NCBI GenBank assembly: GCA_028713655.1
Contig: JAQTNW010000028.1
Coordinates: 1-43,888, forward strand
Origin: Candidatus Methylacidiphilales bacterium
GTDB taxonomy: Bacteria > Verrucomicrobiota > Verrucomicrobiia > Methylacidiphilales > JAAUTS01
DNA: 43,888 nt
Direction: 5' to 3'
Shown here: positions 3,766 to 30,245 of the stretch, in pieces
Numbering within the stretch: position 1 is the first letter of the stretch
How the letters are laid out: each line of letters begins with the position of its first letter
Made by a program: the position numbers and the translations under genes
The notes under the pieces: model-generated
What the model saw: only the letters and a program-made list of their open reading frames with translations
Told to the model about the DNA's origin: nothing
Database searches by the model: none

Positions 3766-4638
3766 CTACAAGTATTCCATGTCCCGAATGGTCCAGAAAT
3801 CCGAGGCCAGAGCCTGGCGTCCGCCGCCGCCAAACGCGTATTCGTACGGCATGGTAAAATAACCGAGCAACCCCCAATCCGCCCCCCAGGAATTGCGCAC
3901 GATAAACCTTTGCTCGGAGTCATTGTACCCAACCGCGAACACCGCATGGCCGCCGACCGGCCTTTCTGCGCGCGACGGATAATTTACAATTCCGGTTTTG
4001 GCCACTTCCCGGGATTCAAAAGCCGTATAGACGCTGAAGCCGAAGACAACCGGGTAGCCCTCGGCCAGGCAAGCCCGTGCATCATCCAACTCGCGGACGG
4101 AATGGTAGGATAAAATCTGGCGCTGTTCGGCTTCAACATAGCATTTGGCGGGTGGTTTGACGGTGAATTTTTTGATGTCATACGGCCAGTGCGTCTCGGT
4201 ACAAATCCCCTGTTTGTTCAGGGTTTTGATGCCGTCGCGCAGATAGCCGCCACTGTCTTGTTGGGTCGTGTGGGTCAGCACACGCTCATTATAGTAAAGG
4301 AAAAGGCGGCTGAGATCGCTGAAGTATCCCCCGCGCTTGAGTTCCAGAAACTCCAGCGCTCCAACCAATGCGTTGGCGGTGCAACTGCCCAATTCCCCCT
4401 GGTTTTCCACCGTTGAACATTTTTCACGCAAATCAACAACGGGCGGCAGCGCGGGCCGTACAGGCCTGATGGCCGAATAAAGAAGATCGCGGTGATCCGG
4501 CAAATCCGCATGCCAGCCGTACCAGGCAATCGGATTTCCCGACATGCGCAACGGCGGGAAAGGTTTTGTAACAGCGGCCTTTTTTCTTTTTTGAATACTC
4601 TTCTTTGCGGCAGTTGTCCTGTGTTTTTTAGCACTCAT
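3766..4638 (-). CDS. papain-family (C1) cysteine peptidase
   Basis: The 290-residue product carries the full papain catalytic set: oxyanion Gln80 and nucleophile Cys86 in NQGELGSCTANALVGALEFL, His231 in VGGHAVFAVGYND, and Asn249 in VRNSWGADWG. The N-terminus is Lys/Arg-rich (KKHRTTAAKKSIQKRKK) with no hydrophobic signal peptide and no long inhibitory propeptide, so it may act in the cytoplasm or be exported by another route. The ATG at 4638 is preferred to an upstream in-frame TTG at 4668. Bacterial C1 peptidases of this short type are known from many phyla, but substrates are generally unknown. The gene stands alone, flanked by repeat-containing gaps. Confidence 0.9.
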   Translation of the reverse strand: MSAKKHRTTAAKKSIQKRKKAAVTKPFPPLRMSGNPIAWYGWHADLPDHRDLLYSAIRPVRPALPPVVDLREKCSTVENQGELGSCTANALVGALEFLELKRGGYFSDLSRLFLYYNERVLTHTTQQDSGGYLRDGIKTLNKQGICTETHWPYDIKKFTVKPPAKCYVEAEQRQILSYHSVRELDDARACLAEGYPVVFGFSVYTAFESREVAKTGIVNYPSRAERPVGGHAVFAVGYNDSEQRFIVRNSWGADWGLLGYFTMPYEYAFGGGGRQALASDFWTIRDMEYL

Positions 4639-4815
4639 GATTTGTTGGCAGCCTTCATTTGTAATCAACTAAAGCTTGATTCTTTGTTGATGAGGCTCAA
4701 GCCAAATGAGAAGCCTTGTGGCGGGTTATTAACAGATTTTTGCAAACAACCCAGTTGTGTACAACAATTTAAGGCAAACGATTCACTTAAGGATTATAAT
4801 AAATTGTTAAATGGC
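4639..4815. other. upstream region of the peptidase gene, AT-rich
   Basis: This is a relatively AT-rich stretch leading away from the peptidase start. A TATAAT hexamer lies at 4795-4800 on the plus strand, but no -35 element at the right spacing could be identified. Nothing else is evident. Confidence 0.35.
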
Positions 4816-7241: not shown

Positions 7242-7268
7242 AAAGGGGTCTGTCAACTATTCTTGACA
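7242..7268. repeat. 27-bp terminal inverted repeat, left copy (REP-like)
   Basis: This is an exact inverted copy of 8325-8351. It contains a GGGGTC head followed by the imperfectly closed palindrome TGTCAA-CTATTC-TTGACA. A short conserved head plus hairpin is the known architecture of REP sequences bounding tyrosine transposases. The transposase stop codon lies inside this copy. Confidence 0.9.
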
Positions 7269-8296
7269 AGCTTTTGCCATTGCTGGTGCATTTTGTCTGT
7301 GGGGATTTGCCCCAGCGTCAGCCTTCTCACCTGCTGGCAGACGTTCCCCGCGCTTTTCATCCATAGCCGTTCGGCTATCCACTTCTGCGACACGGTGGTT
7401 TTTTCTTTCAATGCGGCCGCAATCACCGCTTTCTCAGGCCTGCTTCCAGACGTGGATTTGAGGTCGTTTTCTTTCAGGCCAAACGCCTTCAACCCGCTCT
7501 CGATAAGTCCTTCGGCCAAGGCGCTGCTTTGTTCCCGCGTTTGTGGACTGCTGCGGTAATTGCGATTGGACCGCTGTTTCTTCGGATCCAGGAGTTTGAG
7601 CAGCTTTTCACGAAATTGCTGCCCGCCCCAATACCAACCCCTCTGCAAGGTGCTATTTAGGGTCTGCCCATCCAATGTTTGTCCCTGCTCGGACAAGCCG
7701 ATAGCTTCCAGGCGTTTCACGTAATCGTGTCTTCCGGAAGCGGAATCCTTGGTGTTGGCCAAACTAAAACCCAGTTCCGTTTCAAGCCAGTCGGGTCTGA
7801 CTCCCGGCACACAGCCATAGCCTTGGGTAAGACTGCTCCAATAATATCCCAACAGGCCCTTGCCCGTTTGTGGATTCACCAATCCAGCCCTCAGGGGGTT
7901 GAGATGAACATAGTCGATGAGAAGAGCCAGATACGCAATGGCGCTTGTGCCGGCAGCGCGTTTTCTGCCTGCTTCAACCACAATGGCTTTGTAGCGTCCT
8001 CCAAACACATGGCCCCATAGGTGATGACGGCAATTCAGCCGACGGGTGTACGTGTTTTGGAACCATTTCATGCCCGCCACCAGGTTGGGTTCCGGTGTTT
8101 GCAGAACCATGTGGTAATGGTTGGACATCAAGACCCACGCATGTACGCGCCAGCCGGTCTTGTCACAGGCTTCACCCAAAGTGCGCAGGAAGAGTTCCCG
8201 GTCCTGTTTGTCTTCCACGATATCCTCACGGCGGTCTCCCCGGGCCATGACGTGGTAGAAAGCCCCGCCATATTCAATCCGCAGTTGCCGTGCCAT
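7253..8296 (-). CDS. REP-associated tyrosine transposase (RAYT, Y1_Tnp family)
   Basis: The N-terminal domain of this 347-residue protein has the RAYT pattern: MARQLRIEYGGAFYHVMARG, the metal-binding HUH motif H60-Y61-H62 in MSNHYHMVLQTPEPNL, and the catalytic tyrosine Y83 in NTYTRRLN, followed by GHVFGGRYKA. These enzymes cut and join single-stranded DNA at REP hairpins. The protein is much longer than minimal RAYTs (about 150-220 residues). Its C-terminal ~170 residues are Lys/Arg-rich and end in a likely helix-turn-helix (VSQKWIAERLWMKSAGNVCQQVRRL). A GGATAGG-like ribosome-binding site precedes the ATG. The frame is intact, so the enzyme is probably active. Confidence 0.93.
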   Translation of the reverse strand: MARQLRIEYGGAFYHVMARGDRREDIVEDKQDRELFLRTLGEACDKTGWRVHAWVLMSNHYHMVLQTPEPNLVAGMKWFQNTYTRRLNCRHHLWGHVFGGRYKAIVVEAGRKRAAGTSAIAYLALLIDYVHLNPLRAGLVNPQTGKGLLGYYWSSLTQGYGCVPGVRPDWLETELGFSLANTKDSASGRHDYVKRLEAIGLSEQGQTLDGQTLNSTLQRGWYWGGQQFREKLLKLLDPKKQRSNRNYRSSPQTREQSSALAEGLIESGLKAFGLKENDLKSTSGSRPEKAVIAAALKEKTTVSQKWIAERLWMKSAGNVCQQVRRLTLGQIPTDKMHQQWQKLVKNS

Positions 8297-17437: not shown

Positions 17438-18484
17438 CTAAAAGCTTGGTAATGTTTTCTTGGTTCGGAATCTTGAGAGTGCAGAGCAATCCACAAGCCG
17501 ATCTAGTGTTTTAGGCGTAAAGATTTTTCCTTTCGCGTGGAAAATCATTTGTCGCATGTCCTCACGGCGGACACCAAAACCTCGTCCAGCCAAACAAGCA
17601 ATCACCTCGTAGCCACCTTTCCCAGAGCGTTCTCGCTCTGCTGACATCTGGCAGAGCCGGATAACCCGTGTTGCCTTGTCTCTTGCTGTTCCATCGTCTT
17701 CGGTTAGTTTGGCTTCGATGATAACCTGCGGTTGAAACTCGTCGGGGATAATGAAGTCGGGGGCTTGGTCAAAACCCACAAGCCGCTCAGCCCGTTTGGT
17801 CTTGCGGAACGTGATACCAGCCCGGCTCAACTGCTCCTCAATCGCCGATTCAAGTCCGTCACCAACCAGCTCACTGACAGAATCACGATGCCCTGCGAAA
17901 GACCTGCCCAAAAAACGTTCATAAAGCAGCATGGCGTAGGGCGCACCAAGATCGGCCAACTGCTTGACAGACGACAACCCCTCCAAGCTATCGGCCTTGC
18001 TAAATCGGTGCAGCTTGTCGGCAGCAACAGTTGGGCATCCCTCTTCAATCAAGTCACACGCTGTCTCTACCAGTGCCGTGATCCGTGTGAGTGTTGTTGC
18101 ACCCGGTTTCAGTGAACGGTCGGGGTGTACACGAATGTCCCGGTCCAAAGTACGTGCCGCTCCCTGTGGAATTTCCACACCTTTTCGACTGGATGCCAAG
18201 TAGGCCCATTCCGGTGGCGTGAAACCAAGAATGGCCCGCAACACGATGAGAGTAACAGGCGTCTGAAGCGCCGCGCCTAGAATCGCTGGATATTCAAATC
18301 GCGTGAATCCATCTGAGATTTTCTTGAGCGCTTCATACCCAGCGGCAAAAACTGGGTAATCCAGAAAACCATCTCCTTTCGGCATGATGAGAAACTCAGA
18401 AGCAAGGTTTGAAAAAACCGCATCGACAAAAGATTCAGGTGCAGCCAGCACCTCGTCTGGACTAGCTTCAAAAGGGAATTTCAT
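17438..18484 (-). CDS. PD-(D/E)XK nuclease-like protein, partner of the adjacent methyltransferase
   Basis: This is a 348-residue protein. The C-terminal part has a PD-(D/E)XK core: E213 in DGLESAIEEQL, D243 in FDQAPDFIIPDEF, and E257-A258-K259 in QVIIEAKLTEDDG, followed by RVIRLCQMSAERERSGKGGYEVIACLAGRGF. This is the restriction-endonuclease-like fold. The N-terminal ~200 residues are helical and unassigned; they could recognise DNA. Start choice is between ATG 18487 and 18484; a GGAG lies 7 bases from the second. It overlaps the methyltransferase end by 17 bp, so the two are translated together. A restriction function is inferred from the fold and the partner. Confidence 0.8.
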   Translation of the reverse strand: MKFPFEASPDEVLAAPESFVDAVFSNLASEFLIMPKGDGFLDYPVFAAGYEALKKISDGFTRFEYPAILGAALQTPVTLIVLRAILGFTPPEWAYLASSRKGVEIPQGAARTLDRDIRVHPDRSLKPGATTLTRITALVETACDLIEEGCPTVAADKLHRFSKADSLEGLSSVKQLADLGAPYAMLLYERFLGRSFAGHRDSVSELVGDGLESAIEEQLSRAGITFRKTKRAERLVGFDQAPDFIIPDEFQPQVIIEAKLTEDDGTARDKATRVIRLCQMSAERERSGKGGYEVIACLAGRGFGVRREDMRQMIFHAKGKIFTPKTLDRLVDCSALSRFRTKKTLPSF

Positions 18485-20669
18485 CATATATCTCCGTAGT
18501 TTCACGTACCATATCTGCCATCATCCAATCCTGACGAGCGGGAGCTGAGGCAAAGTTGCCTTCCAATACGGCTACCACCACCTCCAAACCGCCAAATTGC
18601 CGATACCAAGTCCGTACGGTCTGCATTCTCTCAGTTGTTGGAGTGTTGCGTTCCCAGTCGGCGCGCAAATTCCATACCGCCAGCCGCGTCAAATGCCCGT
18701 GCGCCATGCATCTGATGTCGCCTTGCGTTGTATTGAGACCAGCTTGTGCAAGCGCCTCGATTTCCACTTGAAGGATACTGGCAAGTTGCTCGGGCGTATT
18801 AACTATCCATTTCCTCGGTGCCCTCCCCGTCTTGCGACAGACGAAAACTGTATCAATCACTGAGGAACTGGTTCCGTTGATGTGAATAGACGCCCCCATC
18901 TCCGCAGGACACGGCAGCGAAGCCGAACAAGTTAACCCAGCATCGAGAATTGCAACCGCTAGCGGCACGTAGGCATCCAGCTTGTTGTGATGATATGTGA
19001 ACACCAGCGGGCTTCCAGGCTGGAGCCGTTCCGCCGACTTTCGGAAGGTGGACGAAATTCCATCCGTAAAATGAACGAGGTCCCGGCCCATATTGATGTT
19101 GCCCGTGAGTTCGCCTGCATTCCGTGTCGTTGGACTAGCAAATTCCGGATGCGACGCTCCCGCCAGTTTGCGCAACCAGACGTAGCAAAAATCCATTAAC
19201 TCCGCGTATTGCACGTTCCCGAAATAAGGAGGGTCGGTGAAAATCCCATCGAACAGCCTCCGCCCCTTTAATGTTTTGGAATCTCCGCAGATCAGATCTA
19301 CCTGACGCCGTTCCGGCGGATGCGATCCATTCCGATACGTCCCGATCCATTCACCGGTGATGGGCACCTCAACCTTGTTCTTACCTTCGTGCCGAATTTC
19401 AAACGGCTTGGAGCAATAGCTTTTAGCCTTCGAGAATTTCTCCGTAATGTTCAACCACCCTCCGCTACCCACCGGTTGGCCGTGCCCGCCTTCAATTCCC
19501 ATGACATTCGACTCGCACTGGATGAGTCCAACAGGAAATCCATGGACGGAAAAAATGTCGAGCGACTTTAAAGCCATGATGTCGTAGCGACAGAGCATGT
19601 TTTGATAACGGAGTAGATCGGAAAGATTCGTCGCCAACGCCTCACGAATACGCGTATCAGGGTACTTGCTGATCCACCGACAACTCAATTCCAACCCGAG
19701 CAACTGCCGGGCATTAAACAATTCCCGATAATGCCGGTAGCCCCAGCGATGAAGCCGTTCGGTTTCATCCCCCTTCGGAATTGCGTCCTCTGGAATGAAC
19801 TGGGGGCGCATCTTGCGCAAACGCTCCTCAGCATCCGCAAAGTTGGAAAAATCCACCGCGTCGGGTGCTTTGAAAAGCCTCCCTTTGCGTGATCCTCCAG
19901 TGTGTGCCTCCGGTAAATGGTATTCTATGGCAAACAACCGATGCTCGGGAGGCACGCCGGTCGGATAGGCAACCTCCGCGTTGCAATGAAGACAGCGGGA
20001 ACGATTGCGTCCCGCCGTGTGTTCTGCGGGCAAATGTTTCCCGCAGTTTGGGCACTCTCCAGGATATTTCCGATTCTTCGACTCGAACAAGGAACCGCAA
20101 TAACCGCAGGTGAACACATTGGCCGTGTGTCGCACATCCTGGACGATCAAATGATTAGGGAAGAGATCATGCTTTTTTCCGCATGAGCTACATTTCACCG
20201 TTTTAACCCACAGGAAATACTTCGCCTCCGCAGTCTTCCCGGTCTTGGTACATCTGGTCTGAAACAAGGGGCCGATCTCCTCACGCAGATGCGTCCGAAG
20301 CGCCCTTGCCGCTTCTGAATATGCCGACAAGTCCAAGTCCTGAATCTCCTGACGTACGATCCACCACGCCATCGGATTAATGTCCGCTGCTGTTACAGCG
20401 CAACCCAGACGGTTCGCTTCCACCACCGTCGTTCCGCCTCCCATGAACGGATCAAGAATATGCTTGTCGGCAAAATTGTGAGCATGGAAATAAGTCTGAT
20501 CCACCCGCGTCCCTCCGAGTTCGGATAAGATCAGCGCCCGAAATAACGTACCCGGCCGCCGCGCAAACCACTTATGTACAGCAATCAGAGGACGGTAGTT
20601 CTGCTGAATCTGCTTCTCTGCCAACGCCATCCGCGCCACAAAGGAAATCTGGAAGTTGCGTTCGATCAT
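18468..20669 (-). CDS. DNA methyltransferase with zinc ribbons (DUF1156-like)
   Basis: The protein has 733 residues. The N-terminus EKQIQQNYRPLIAVHKWFARRPG, AdoMet motif DPFMGGGTT (73-81) and AADINPMAWW (94-103) are typical of DUF1156 methylases. The catalytic DPPY motif is far downstream at 479-482 (FTDPPYFGNVQYAEL), so the two core motifs are split by a ~370-residue insert. The insert holds four CxxC pairs (C160/C163, C188/C191, C206/C209, C226/C229), enough for two zinc ribbons. Such enzymes probably make N6-methyladenine or N4-methylcytosine and occur in defence islands. Here the partner is a PD-(D/E)XK protein. A TATAAT lies 38 bp upstream of the ATG. Confidence 0.88.
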   Translation of the reverse strand: MIERNFQISFVARMALAEKQIQQNYRPLIAVHKWFARRPGTLFRALILSELGGTRVDQTYFHAHNFADKHILDPFMGGGTTVVEANRLGCAVTAADINPMAWWIVRQEIQDLDLSAYSEAARALRTHLREEIGPLFQTRCTKTGKTAEAKYFLWVKTVKCSSCGKKHDLFPNHLIVQDVRHTANVFTCGYCGSLFESKNRKYPGECPNCGKHLPAEHTAGRNRSRCLHCNAEVAYPTGVPPEHRLFAIEYHLPEAHTGGSRKGRLFKAPDAVDFSNFADAEERLRKMRPQFIPEDAIPKGDETERLHRWGYRHYRELFNARQLLGLELSCRWISKYPDTRIREALATNLSDLLRYQNMLCRYDIMALKSLDIFSVHGFPVGLIQCESNVMGIEGGHGQPVGSGGWLNITEKFSKAKSYCSKPFEIRHEGKNKVEVPITGEWIGTYRNGSHPPERRQVDLICGDSKTLKGRRLFDGIFTDPPYFGNVQYAELMDFCYVWLRKLAGASHPEFASPTTRNAGELTGNINMGRDLVHFTDGISSTFRKSAERLQPGSPLVFTYHHNKLDAYVPLAVAILDAGLTCSASLPCPAEMGASIHINGTSSSVIDTVFVCRKTGRAPRKWIVNTPEQLASILQVEIEALAQAGLNTTQGDIRCMAHGHLTRLAVWNLRADWERNTPTTERMQTVRTWYRQFGGLEVVVAVLEGNFASAPARQDWMMADMVRETTEIYDEIPF

Positions 20670-26878: not shown

Positions 26879-29170
26879 TCACTCACCTAACACAATCACT
26901 TCCAGTTCCAGATCGATTCCCCGCTCGGCCTTTGCTTTGCGCTTTACTGTCTCTATCAAACGAAGCACGTCCGAACCCGTTGCTTTACCATCATTCACAA
27001 TAAAATTGGCATGTACAGCAGAAATTCGAGCCCCTCCGCAACATGTGTCCTTCAGCCCCAGTTCATCAATCAGCCTGCCCGCCGGAATCTGTCCGGGATT
27101 TTTAAAGGTGCAGCCCGCGCTCGGCGCCGCAGGCTGCGAGCTCCACCGTTTTTGGCTGAACGAATTGAGGGTCTCGGCTATCGCAGCGCCCTCTTTTGGA
27201 ACCCCTTTCAACCAGGCCCCCAGGGCAATGCTGCTTTCCAAAAACGGCACGGAACGGTAACGAACGTCGATTTCCTCGCGCGGCGCCTCGCAAACCTTTC
27301 CTTCCGGGTTTAGATAACGGACCCGCTCCACCATTTCAAACAAGGAGGATTGCATGGCGCCCGCATTCATCCGCAAAGCGCCTCCAAGATTTCCCGGGAT
27401 GCCTTCCATGAATTCCAAGCCGCCCAGGCAGGCCTTCCTGGCCTCGTACACAATCTGCTTCAACCTGGCCCCCGCGCCGGCATAGATGCTTTCCCCTTCA
27501 ATCCGGATCCGGCTGAATTCAGGCCGCCCCAAATGGATGCACACCCCCCGGATCCCGTGGTCCAGCACCAGCAAATTACTCCCCCTTCCCACCAATGTCA
27601 CCGGTACGCCTTCCCTGCGGCAAAATACGGCCACTTTTGACAACACCGTTTCGTCCGAGGGCTCAAACCAAATCTGCGCCGGCCCGCCCACACGCAGCGT
27701 TGTGTGCCTGCTCATCGGCTCGTACGCTTTCAACACCGACTGCTCACCTGCCAGGCTGCCAATCATTTTGAACAAACGCAGGTCGCGCGACAGTTCTTCA
27801 GCCACTTCATGGATATTCCCGGCTCCCATCGTCAATACGCAGTCGCCCGGTTCCAAATTCACGCTCAGCTCGGTTTTTAAATCCTTCAAGGTCTCGGAAT
27901 AGGCGACACGGCCTCCCTCGCCCTGGCGTACCGCTTCCGCAAATGCCGGCCCGCTGACTCCTTCAATCGGGGCCTCGCCTGCGGAATAAATGTCGGTCAG
28001 GAAAACCCGGTCGGCGGCGGTGAATGCGCCTGCAAATTCGTTCTTCAAATGATACGAGCGCGAGTAGCGGTGGGGTTGGAATGCGGCCAAAATCCGCTTT
28101 TTCCCATAACTTCCTGCTGCTGCCAGCGTCGCGCGGATTTCCGACGGATGATGGGCGTAATCATCCACCACCATGTAGTCCTCGTCCGCATAAAGAATGT
28201 CAAAGCGCCGACCCGCTCCGCGCACCGATCCGAGCGCTTTACGGCAGGCGTCGAAATCCACGCCAGTCAGCCGGGCAAGCGCCAGCGCGCCCAGCGCATT
28301 GCTGATATTATGCCGGCCCGGCAGCGTCAAACGCAGTTCTCCAAGCTCAGTCCCGCGCTCACGCACCCTGAAAACGGAGCCTCCGGCTTCCAGCCGGATT
28401 CCATCCGCTTGATAGTCCGCCGCTTCGTTTATGGAATAGGTCACAATCCCGGGCAACTCGGAGGCCATCCGGCGGCAAACGGGATCATCCTTGCAAACGA
28501 CCACCTCGTCCTTCGCTTTCCGCGCCAACTGGACAAACGCATTCCGTATGTGTTCCAAATCGCCATAGTGATCCAGATGGTCTCCCTCAATATTCAGGAT
28601 CAGAACCGAGGAAGGGTCGTAGCAATCGAGGGTTCCATCGCTTTCATCCGCCTCAATGACCATCTCCCGCCCGCTTCCCCATGCCGCGCTGGACGGCAGC
28701 GAAGGCACGTCCGCGCCAATATAGTACCCGGGATCGCGCCCGTCGGATTTGAAGATTTGCGCCAGAAGCAACGCGGTGGTGGTCTTCCCATGCGTGCCGC
28801 TCACCACGTTCAATTTGCGGCCCCGGCACAATGCCGCCAGCATTTCCGCCCGCTTGAACTCCGGAATGCCGCGTTCAGCCGCGGCCTTGCGCTCGGCATT
28901 GTCAGGGCGGACGGCCGATGAATAAACCAGAGCCCTGGCCTTGCCCAGGTTCGCGTCCGCGTGTTCGTGGAAAAATTTGAGCCCGAGCTTTTCCATGTCG
29001 GGAATCTGGCTGCCTTTGCGAAGGTCGGACCCCGACACCGCACAGCCCCTGTCCAAAAGCAGCCGCGCGATACCTATCATTCCACTACCGGAAATTCCGG
29101 CCAGATGAAATGCCGCGCCCGGCTCTTCCAACAGCCGCGCCGCCTCGCTCACCTTGGAATCAGAGGACAT
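26879..29170 (-). CDS. murCB: MurC-MurB fusion: UDP-MurNAc--L-Ala ligase and UDP-GlcNAc enolpyruvyl reductase
   Basis: One frame of 763 residues carries two enzymes. Residues 1 to about 450 are MurC (FHLAGISGSGM, P-loop GTHGKTTT at 125-132, EADESDGTL, DDYAHHPSEIRATL). From about 455 it is MurB (RHTTLRVGGPAQIWFEP FAD region, GSNLLVLD, MEGIPGNLGGALRMNAGA, catalytic SAGCTFKNP). MurB reduces the enolpyruvyl group to give UDP-MurNAc; MurC then adds L-Ala. MurC-MurB fusions are known from Verrucomicrobia and Chlamydiae. ATG 29170 is chosen because GAGGAGG lies 6 bases upstream; it overlaps the end of murG by 11 bp. Confidence 0.97.
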   Translation of the reverse strand: MSSDSKVSEAARLLEEPGAAFHLAGISGSGMIGIARLLLDRGCAVSGSDLRKGSQIPDMEKLGLKFFHEHADANLGKARALVYSSAVRPDNAERKAAAERGIPEFKRAEMLAALCRGRKLNVVSGTHGKTTTALLLAQIFKSDGRDPGYYIGADVPSLPSSAAWGSGREMVIEADESDGTLDCYDPSSVLILNIEGDHLDHYGDLEHIRNAFVQLARKAKDEVVVCKDDPVCRRMASELPGIVTYSINEAADYQADGIRLEAGGSVFRVRERGTELGELRLTLPGRHNISNALGALALARLTGVDFDACRKALGSVRGAGRRFDILYADEDYMVVDDYAHHPSEIRATLAAAGSYGKKRILAAFQPHRYSRSYHLKNEFAGAFTAADRVFLTDIYSAGEAPIEGVSGPAFAEAVRQGEGGRVAYSETLKDLKTELSVNLEPGDCVLTMGAGNIHEVAEELSRDLRLFKMIGSLAGEQSVLKAYEPMSRHTTLRVGGPAQIWFEPSDETVLSKVAVFCRREGVPVTLVGRGSNLLVLDHGIRGVCIHLGRPEFSRIRIEGESIYAGAGARLKQIVYEARKACLGGLEFMEGIPGNLGGALRMNAGAMQSSLFEMVERVRYLNPEGKVCEAPREEIDVRYRSVPFLESSIALGAWLKGVPKEGAAIAETLNSFSQKRWSSQPAAPSAGCTFKNPGQIPAGRLIDELGLKDTCCGGARISAVHANFIVNDGKATGSDVLRLIETVKRKAKAERGIDLELEVIVLGE

Positions 29171-30245
29171 TCTGGACCTCCTCGGCCACCCTGCGGGCCG
29201 CATGAGGCGGATTCAGAAAACCCGCCTTCCCCGCCAGTTTCTCCAGCAGATTGCGGTTATTGAATAAAAGACAGGCTTCCTCGGCAAGCCGGCGTTCCGA
29301 TCCATTGCCCTCGTGCACAACCCTTGCTGCTCCGGCATCCGAGTAAATGGAGGCATTTTTCGACTGGTGATCCTCGGCCGCATGGGGGTAGGGAACCAGG
29401 ATTGAAGCCAGCCCAAAAAGGCTGATTTCTGCAAGCGAGGCCGCGCCCGAGCGTCCGATCACCAGATCCGCCGCACTGTATAAATTTTCCATCACGGAGC
29501 AAAACGGCAACACCGATGCCTCCAGGCTGTTGCGCCGATAATTGGCCTGCAACAACTCACATTCCTGCGGCCCGGTCAAATGGATGAATTGCACACGGTC
29601 CCGCAAATCTTCCCAGTAGGGCATCGCAAGAATCACCAGGCGATTCAAACCCTGCGCACCCTGGCTGCCCCCGATAATCCCGATGGTGAATTTACCCGGG
29701 TCCAAATCCCAGAAGGATGCGGCAGCCTTCCGCTCCACTCGCCGCAGAGAACTGCGCACAGGCGTTCCTGTCAGGACGGTCCTGCCTTCAGGAAGCCAGT
29801 CCCCGCATTCCGCAAAGCCCAACAAAACTTTGCCCGCCTTGCTGGAAAGCCAGCGCGTCACCTTGCCCGGTATGGCATTGGATTCATGAAGCAGGGTCGG
29901 GACCTTTGAACGCGAGGCGCTGAGGATCAGCGGCGCGCTGGTGAATCCGCCCATTCCAAGCACGGCCGCCAATTTCTCATTGCGAATTTCGGATGACGAC
30001 AACCGACAGGCTTCAAAAAATTTGGCGCCAAAGCGGAATATTTTCAAGCCGAGGCCCGGCCAGCCTATTGTCGGCAGCGGCACGCTTGGAAATTCCGGAT
30101 TGCGCGAAAGGATCTTGCGGTCGATGTCCTTCATCGAAACATACAACCGCACCTCGTGCCCCATGCCGGCCAGGATTTCCGCGACCGCCAGGCCGGGATA
30201 CAGGTGGCCTCCGGTCCCGCCGCATGCGATGCCAATTCTTGCCAT
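29160..30245 (-). CDS. murG: UDP-GlcNAc:lipid I transferase MurG
   Basis: MurG converts lipid I to lipid II on the cytoplasmic face of the membrane. The 361-residue product begins MARIGIACGGTGGHLYPGLA with the G-loop GGTGGH (9-14). It has the second Gly-rich loop GIIGGSQGAQGLN and the nucleotide-sugar-binding region DLVIGRSGAASLAEISLFGLASILVPYPHAAEDHQ. ATG 30245 gives the standard N-terminus; upstream in-frame codons overlap ftsW. It is coupled to ftsW (5 bp) upstream and to murCB (overlap) downstream. Confidence 0.96.
   Translation of the reverse strand: MARIGIACGGTGGHLYPGLAVAEILAGMGHEVRLYVSMKDIDRKILSRNPEFPSVPLPTIGWPGLGLKIFRFGAKFFEACRLSSSEIRNEKLAAVLGMGGFTSAPLILSASRSKVPTLLHESNAIPGKVTRWLSSKAGKVLLGFAECGDWLPEGRTVLTGTPVRSSLRRVERKAAASFWDLDPGKFTIGIIGGSQGAQGLNRLVILAMPYWEDLRDRVQFIHLTGPQECELLQANYRRNSLEASVLPFCSVMENLYSAADLVIGRSGAASLAEISLFGLASILVPYPHAAEDHQSKNASIYSDAGAARVVHEGNGSERRLAEEACLLFNNRNLLEKLAGKAGFLNPPHAARRVAEEVQNVL

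Follow-up and report, generated by a model that had tools for sequence, protein, structure and literature searches.

A compact COG1743-type methylase and an adjoining PD-(D/E)XK nuclease form a predicted two-gene type II restriction-modification system found in many bacterial phyla

DNA methylases of the COG1743 (DUF1156) group are known from operons that also encode DUF499 and a SWI2/SNF2 helicase-nuclease (PMC7641849), and systems built on them have been described as BREX-related (PMC12839542). No description of a two-gene form of such a methylase was found in the open literature, REBASE and subscription papers being outside the scope of the search. In this work we analysed a stretch of 43,888 nucleotides (the window) from a Candidatus Methylacidiphilales bacterium, in which the list of open reading frames contains two overlapping minus-strand ORFs at 17438-20669, corresponding to a methylase gene and a nuclease gene. 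Judged from its sequence, the pair is very probably a classical (orthodox) two-gene type II restriction-modification system, which we presume to be active. It shares with the Hma/BREX-related (BR) systems the methylase family, the motif order and the DUF1156-like N-terminus, but the SWI2/SNF2 helicase-nuclease and the DUF499 ATPase are not co-encoded; no helicase, DUF499 or EVE-type partner lies beside the pair within the window, the nuclease stands alone, and the methylase is shorter than the models (733 aa against approximately 920-1000). Like orthodox type II systems, the locus has separate genes for methylase and nuclease, no ATPase, and a nuclease fold nearest to those of BstEII, EcoT38I, PspGI and BsoBI, all of which are type II restriction enzymes. 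It differs from them in a nuclease family not covered by any model in Pfam, NCBIfam or PADLOC and in an unusually large methylase of the Zn-ribbon, COG1743 type.

Both ORFs reported in the initial annotation were present, and their features are listed in Table 1. On one side the pair is flanked by a gene for a NamZ-type muramidase, after which come ftsZ/ftsA/ftsQ/ddl, and on the other by ResB/cytochrome c assembly genes; no gene of a helicase, an ATPase or a phage lies next to it in the window. An Rfam search gave no match. The flanks had been called AT-rich, which holds for the 432-bp intergenic stretch upstream (44% GC) but not for the 54 bp on the downstream side (50%); the GC content of the pair itself is 53% and that of the window 56%. 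The window also carries, at 7253-8296 on the minus strand, a gene with an IS200-like (Y1) transposase domain, at 3766-4668 a papain-family cysteine protease gene and, at 26879-29203 in the division gene cluster, a single 774-aa ORF with Mur ligase and MurB domains, i.e. a Mur ligase-murB fusion.

Table 1. Coordinates of the predicted features of the methylase-nuclease pair (nuclease residues are numbered in the 355-aa frame that begins at GTG 18505).
Feature	Position	Strand	Basis
DNA methyltransferase, compact COG1743/DUF1156-like clade, predicted N6-adenine type (733 aa)	18468..20669	-	ORF, PADLOC matches, AF2 model
PD-(D/E)XK nuclease, predicted type II restriction endonuclease (348 aa; 355 aa from GTG 18505)	17438..18484	-	ORF, start context, fold match
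DUF1156-like N-terminal helical segment of methylase, residues 14-51, includes YRPLIAVHKWFARRP	20517..20630	-	Pfam PF06634, 20.5 bits (curated cut-off 24)
Motif I D73PFMGGG, cofactor binding	20433..20453	-	Invariant in 31 sequences
Four CxxC pairs (C160 to C229), two predicted zinc ribbons	19983..20192	-	Invariant in 31 sequences
DPPY, motif IV, catalytic, residues 479-482	19224..19235	-	Invariant in 31 sequences
Shine-Dalgarno-like GGAG for nuclease, inside methylase gene end	18492..18495	-	Sequence, spacing 7 nt
Helix-turn-helix-like part of N-terminal helical domain of nuclease, residues 84-126	18128..18256	-	AF2 helices, reading by eye
PD-(D/E)XK catalytic core, residues 207-336	17498..17887	-	Invariant residues and fold
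Nuclease D250	17756-17758	-	
Nuclease E264	17714-17716	-	
Nuclease K266	17708-17710	-	

The methylase shows the order of alpha-class N6-adenine enzymes, motif I - insert - DPPY, and in its AF2 model (pTM 0.85) the methylase core resembles that of CamA and M.TaqI. The DPPY motif and the fold suggest that it probably modifies adenine N6. Four CxxC pairs had been noticed between motif I and DPPY. They are indeed located in this insert (160/163, 188/191, 206/209 and 226/229), and all eight cysteines are conserved in the 31 methylases aligned, as are the two motifs. The best PADLOC matches were HmaB (E 3.8e-24) and DUF1156_MTase (E 4.4e-21), and the score against NCBIfam NF042963 DUF1156_antiphage was 101.5 bits, far under its curated cut-off of 1000 bits. 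'DUF1156-like' was thus an apt label, the Pfam DUF1156 match itself being sub-threshold only. Neither the methylase nor the nuclease had a match in phage records.

The nuclease most likely starts at ATG 18484 rather than at GTG 18505, since a GGAG lies 7 nt upstream of the former and the resulting 17-nt overlap with the methylase gene is of a kind common among relatives. D250, E219, E264 and K266, the latter two belonging to the E-x-K motif E264-A-K266, and the stretch DDGTARDK (270-277) were invariant among 61 nucleases. The core acidic residues are therefore conserved, including the E257 of the initial annotation, which was counted in the 348-aa frame and is E264 here. The D...E-x-K motif sits on the conserved core fold of the PD-(D/E)XK superfamily, as seen in the model and by Foldseek. 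No family in Pfam, NCBIfam or PADLOC matched the nuclease above threshold and the DpnII family (PF04556) did not match at all; the TPD family (PF14811) gave 14.4 bits (E 0.035), under its curated cut-off of 27 bits. A profile search of solved structures returned no PDB chain at E 5. The sole match in the corresponding sequence search, NUDT16, was rejected as spurious.

In the AF2 model of the nuclease (mean pLDDT 85, pTM 0.53) the N-terminal half is all-helical and the C-terminal half has the PD-(D/E)XK fold. Its top PDB match was BstEII (9ibq; Foldseek E 1.6e-3, prob 1.00), closely followed by EcoT38I, PspGI and BsoBI. The Foldseek support is modest (TM 0.34 by query and 0.41 by target for BstEII), and because of this poor whole-chain superposition we claim the fold class alone; the nuclease has no detectable sequence similarity to BstEII. 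The N-terminal helices 84-93, 97-108 and 114-126 look, in the model and by eye, like a helix-turn-helix without profile support, a Pfam search of this region for such domains having given no match. The profiles of Pfam, NCBIfam and PADLOC detected no modified-base reader domain either, which argues against a modification-dependent (type IV-like) nuclease guided or provoked by the methylase. Nothing specific was found in favour of such an enzyme, which, paired with a methylase of equal specificity, would kill its host by cutting methylated DNA, and we regard it as extremely improbable.

The genome-contig scan yielded 200 stretches with relatives, the best 80 of which were retained. The gene immediately upstream, on the same strand, encodes a homologous methylase in 79 of these 80 nuclease loci. 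For the reverse direction we searched 282 genomes belonging to the same phylum as Desulfocicer (Desulfobacterota-type) and obtained 11 orthologous methylases; an intact nuclease immediately follows ten of them, the eleventh being at a contig edge. The neighbourhood survey proposed earlier thus confirmed that nuclease homologues adjoin such methylases. Within Verrucomicrobiota, close relatives of both proteins were found in the same genomes. Carriers among cultured strains include Desulfocicer vacuolatum DSM 3385, Desulfacinum hydrothermale DSM 13146 and Heliophilum fasciatum DSM 11170. In the pairs measured the two genes mostly overlap by 11-59 nt, a few being 7-45 nt apart, and the anomalous spacings of L037, L047 and L070 are due to split or truncated frames.

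The genes are thus adjacent and co-inherited, as in type II restriction-modification, and no helicase or ATPase subunit appears to be needed, no third gene being recurrent in approximately 80 neighbourhoods. The next commonest neighbour family, present at 10 of 83 loci, seems to be a generic sensor protein of the PAS type. Neither a helicase nor a DUF499-type ATPase, both noted as absent from this locus in the initial annotation, is a recurrent neighbour of the relatives. This bears on the idea that the pair is a degenerate or reduced BREX-related (Hma/COG1743-DUF499-helicase) system which has lost both subunits, as the best PADLOC matches of the methylase might suggest. This is very unlikely: neither a helicase nor DUF499 recurs, the two-gene form persists in many phyla, identity of the methylase to its best plasmid-borne relatives, some of them DUF499-linked, is only 25-30%, and the nuclease is a separate protein here but fused to the helicase in the published systems (PMC7641849).

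Further evidence comes from loci in which the nuclease has another partner. The L079 nuclease, 57% identical to that of the window and placed inside the family by the tree, follows an unrelated 491-aa SPPY methylase. Two others, that of L130 on a Microbacterium plasmid (33% identical) and that of L155 in a genome from the phylum of L087 (28%), follow an M.PvuII-like methylase (308 aa) of the beta class, whose best PDB match is M.PvuII. The more distant nucleases of L153 and L154 follow a methylase of the L079 type; they match Pfam DpnII and align with the window family over the catalytic core (hhalign probability 94.5), whereas the window nuclease itself lacks a DpnII match and differs in its helical N-terminus. 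At L153:733-4635 the DpnII-like nuclease and SPPY methylase immediately precede a type IV restriction gene of the GmrSD type.

On these data, three or more methylase types, unrelated to one another, serve as partners of the nuclease family. The specificity of the nuclease should therefore not depend on a methylase of the window type, as expected of type II enzymes, and the arrangement is that of an ordinary type II system rather than of a reduced BREX-related one. The 'minimal restriction-modification form' of the initial annotation remains the best reading, refined in this sense. Partner exchange also weighs on a scheme in which the nuclease would need the methylase as its specificity subunit, both acting in one complex as in type I or bifunctional type II enzymes. 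The size of the methylase, with its extensive insert, and the co-divergence of the two proteins (see below) would fit this scheme, but members of the same nuclease family follow two or more methylase types that are unrelated, and the predicted fold of the nuclease resembles that of self-sufficient type II enzymes, so that we consider it unlikely.

In comparisons with the four relatives closest to the pair, both genes show saturation at silent sites and a replacement divergence of approximately 0.15-0.20. This low value indicates strong purifying selection on both genes and excludes chance ORFs. Methylase and nuclease co-diverge over 78 loci (Mantel r 0.83, the highest of 999 permutations reaching 0.17). 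The nuclease tree places the window protein, with support of 100/99, in a group with sequences of Verrucomicrobiota, one of Desulfobacterales and one of Aminicenantes, and the Thermodesulfobacteriota require at least five label changes on the starred branches. The acquisition by transfer proposed in the initial annotation could not be based on base composition alone; the gene tree is the better support, suggesting that the pair moves between phyla by horizontal transfer. Contamination of metagenome bins could add to the phylum scatter, though the pattern is broad. For an empty-site comparison the relatives were too distant to show the flanks joined.

In two Bacillota-type loci (L156 and L158) an intact methylase stands beside a nuclease remnant, as expected if the toxic nuclease is lost ahead of its protective methylase, and both genes are broken in L157, L159, L160, L197 and L206. 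The opposite decay, a split methylase next to an intact nuclease, was seen in L037 and L047 and possibly reflects assembly errors in metagenome bins. Such remnants in several genomes, together with the patchy distribution (12 of 388 genomes in Verrucomicrobiota), the scatter between phyla in the tree and the near-obligate pairing (79/80 and 10/11), speak against a repair or recombination nuclease accompanied by an epigenetic methylase. The TPD match under its cut-off is what could be said for this explanation, which has hardly any likelihood.

For a type II system, the pairing, conservation, motifs, fold, spread over phyla and methylase exchange lead us to propose the following mode of action. 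The large Zn-ribbon methylase, with the presumed target recognition in the insert between motif I and DPPY, would methylate a short DNA site, the modified position probably being adenine N6. The nuclease would recognise the same site by itself, aided by its helical N-terminal domain, and its PD-(D/E)XK centre would make a metal-dependent double-strand cut where the site is unmethylated. Unmarked foreign DNA, presumably including that of phages, would thus be destroyed. As the genes overlap with the methylase first, the nuclease would be translated after, and coupled to, its protector. The pair would add a predicted, so far unannotated restriction endonuclease family, present in more than 12 bacterial phyla, to the defence repertoire, one in which a single nuclease family exchanges methylase partners, and would extend the role of Zn-ribbon COG1743 methylases beyond BREX-related systems. 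The nuclease could also yield a new reagent specificity, and because the two proteins are self-contained, both the recognition site and restriction are directly testable.

A second compact pair with an unrelated nuclease was observed at L126:1543-4493, L129:4129-7112, L195 and L198-L202. Here a protein of 252-300 aa, which has an invariant PD...E-x-K motif and no match in Pfam or PADLOC, lies directly upstream of a COG1743-type methylase of approximately 710-780 aa, which is 25-30% identical to the window methylase. It is carried by plasmids of Alphaproteobacteria and by several other genomes. There is about an even chance that COG1743/DUF1156-like Zn-ribbon methylases also run widespread two-gene type II systems, having been joined at least twice with unrelated PD-(D/E)XK nucleases, those of the window family and of this second pair; if so, they form an evolutionary bridge between type II restriction-modification and BREX-related defence.

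Candidate recognition sites were sought by site avoidance in the host genome (G000; 20 sampled contigs). This genome strongly avoids GTMKAC (6 occurrences, 147 expected) and CAGCTG (8, 90 expected), neither of which is present in the window, and we retain both as candidates. In other carriers GTMKAC was not associated with the pair (p 0.23) and CAGCTG weakly so (O/E 0.59 against 0.81 in controls, permutation p 0.0135, uncorrected). We claim neither as the site: CTCGAG ranks above CAGCTG among palindromes, the carriers G699 and G1460 hardly avoid CAGCTG and the Microbacterium plasmid does not. GGTNACC, the BstEII site, is not avoided in carriers. The extreme avoidance of GTMKAC and CAGCTG points to one or two palindromic restriction-modification systems long active on G000. 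The further methylases that three family searches found in this genome resemble, when read by eye, type III, type IIG and type ISP enzymes; enzymes of these types usually recognise asymmetric sites. One type III-like methylase gene (L309:1630-9777, G000:C11) adjoins genes for a large ATPase with a PHP/SMC-like N-terminus, a ParA-like ATPase and an HTH/zinc-ribbon regulator, and by eye this looks like another multi-gene defence locus.
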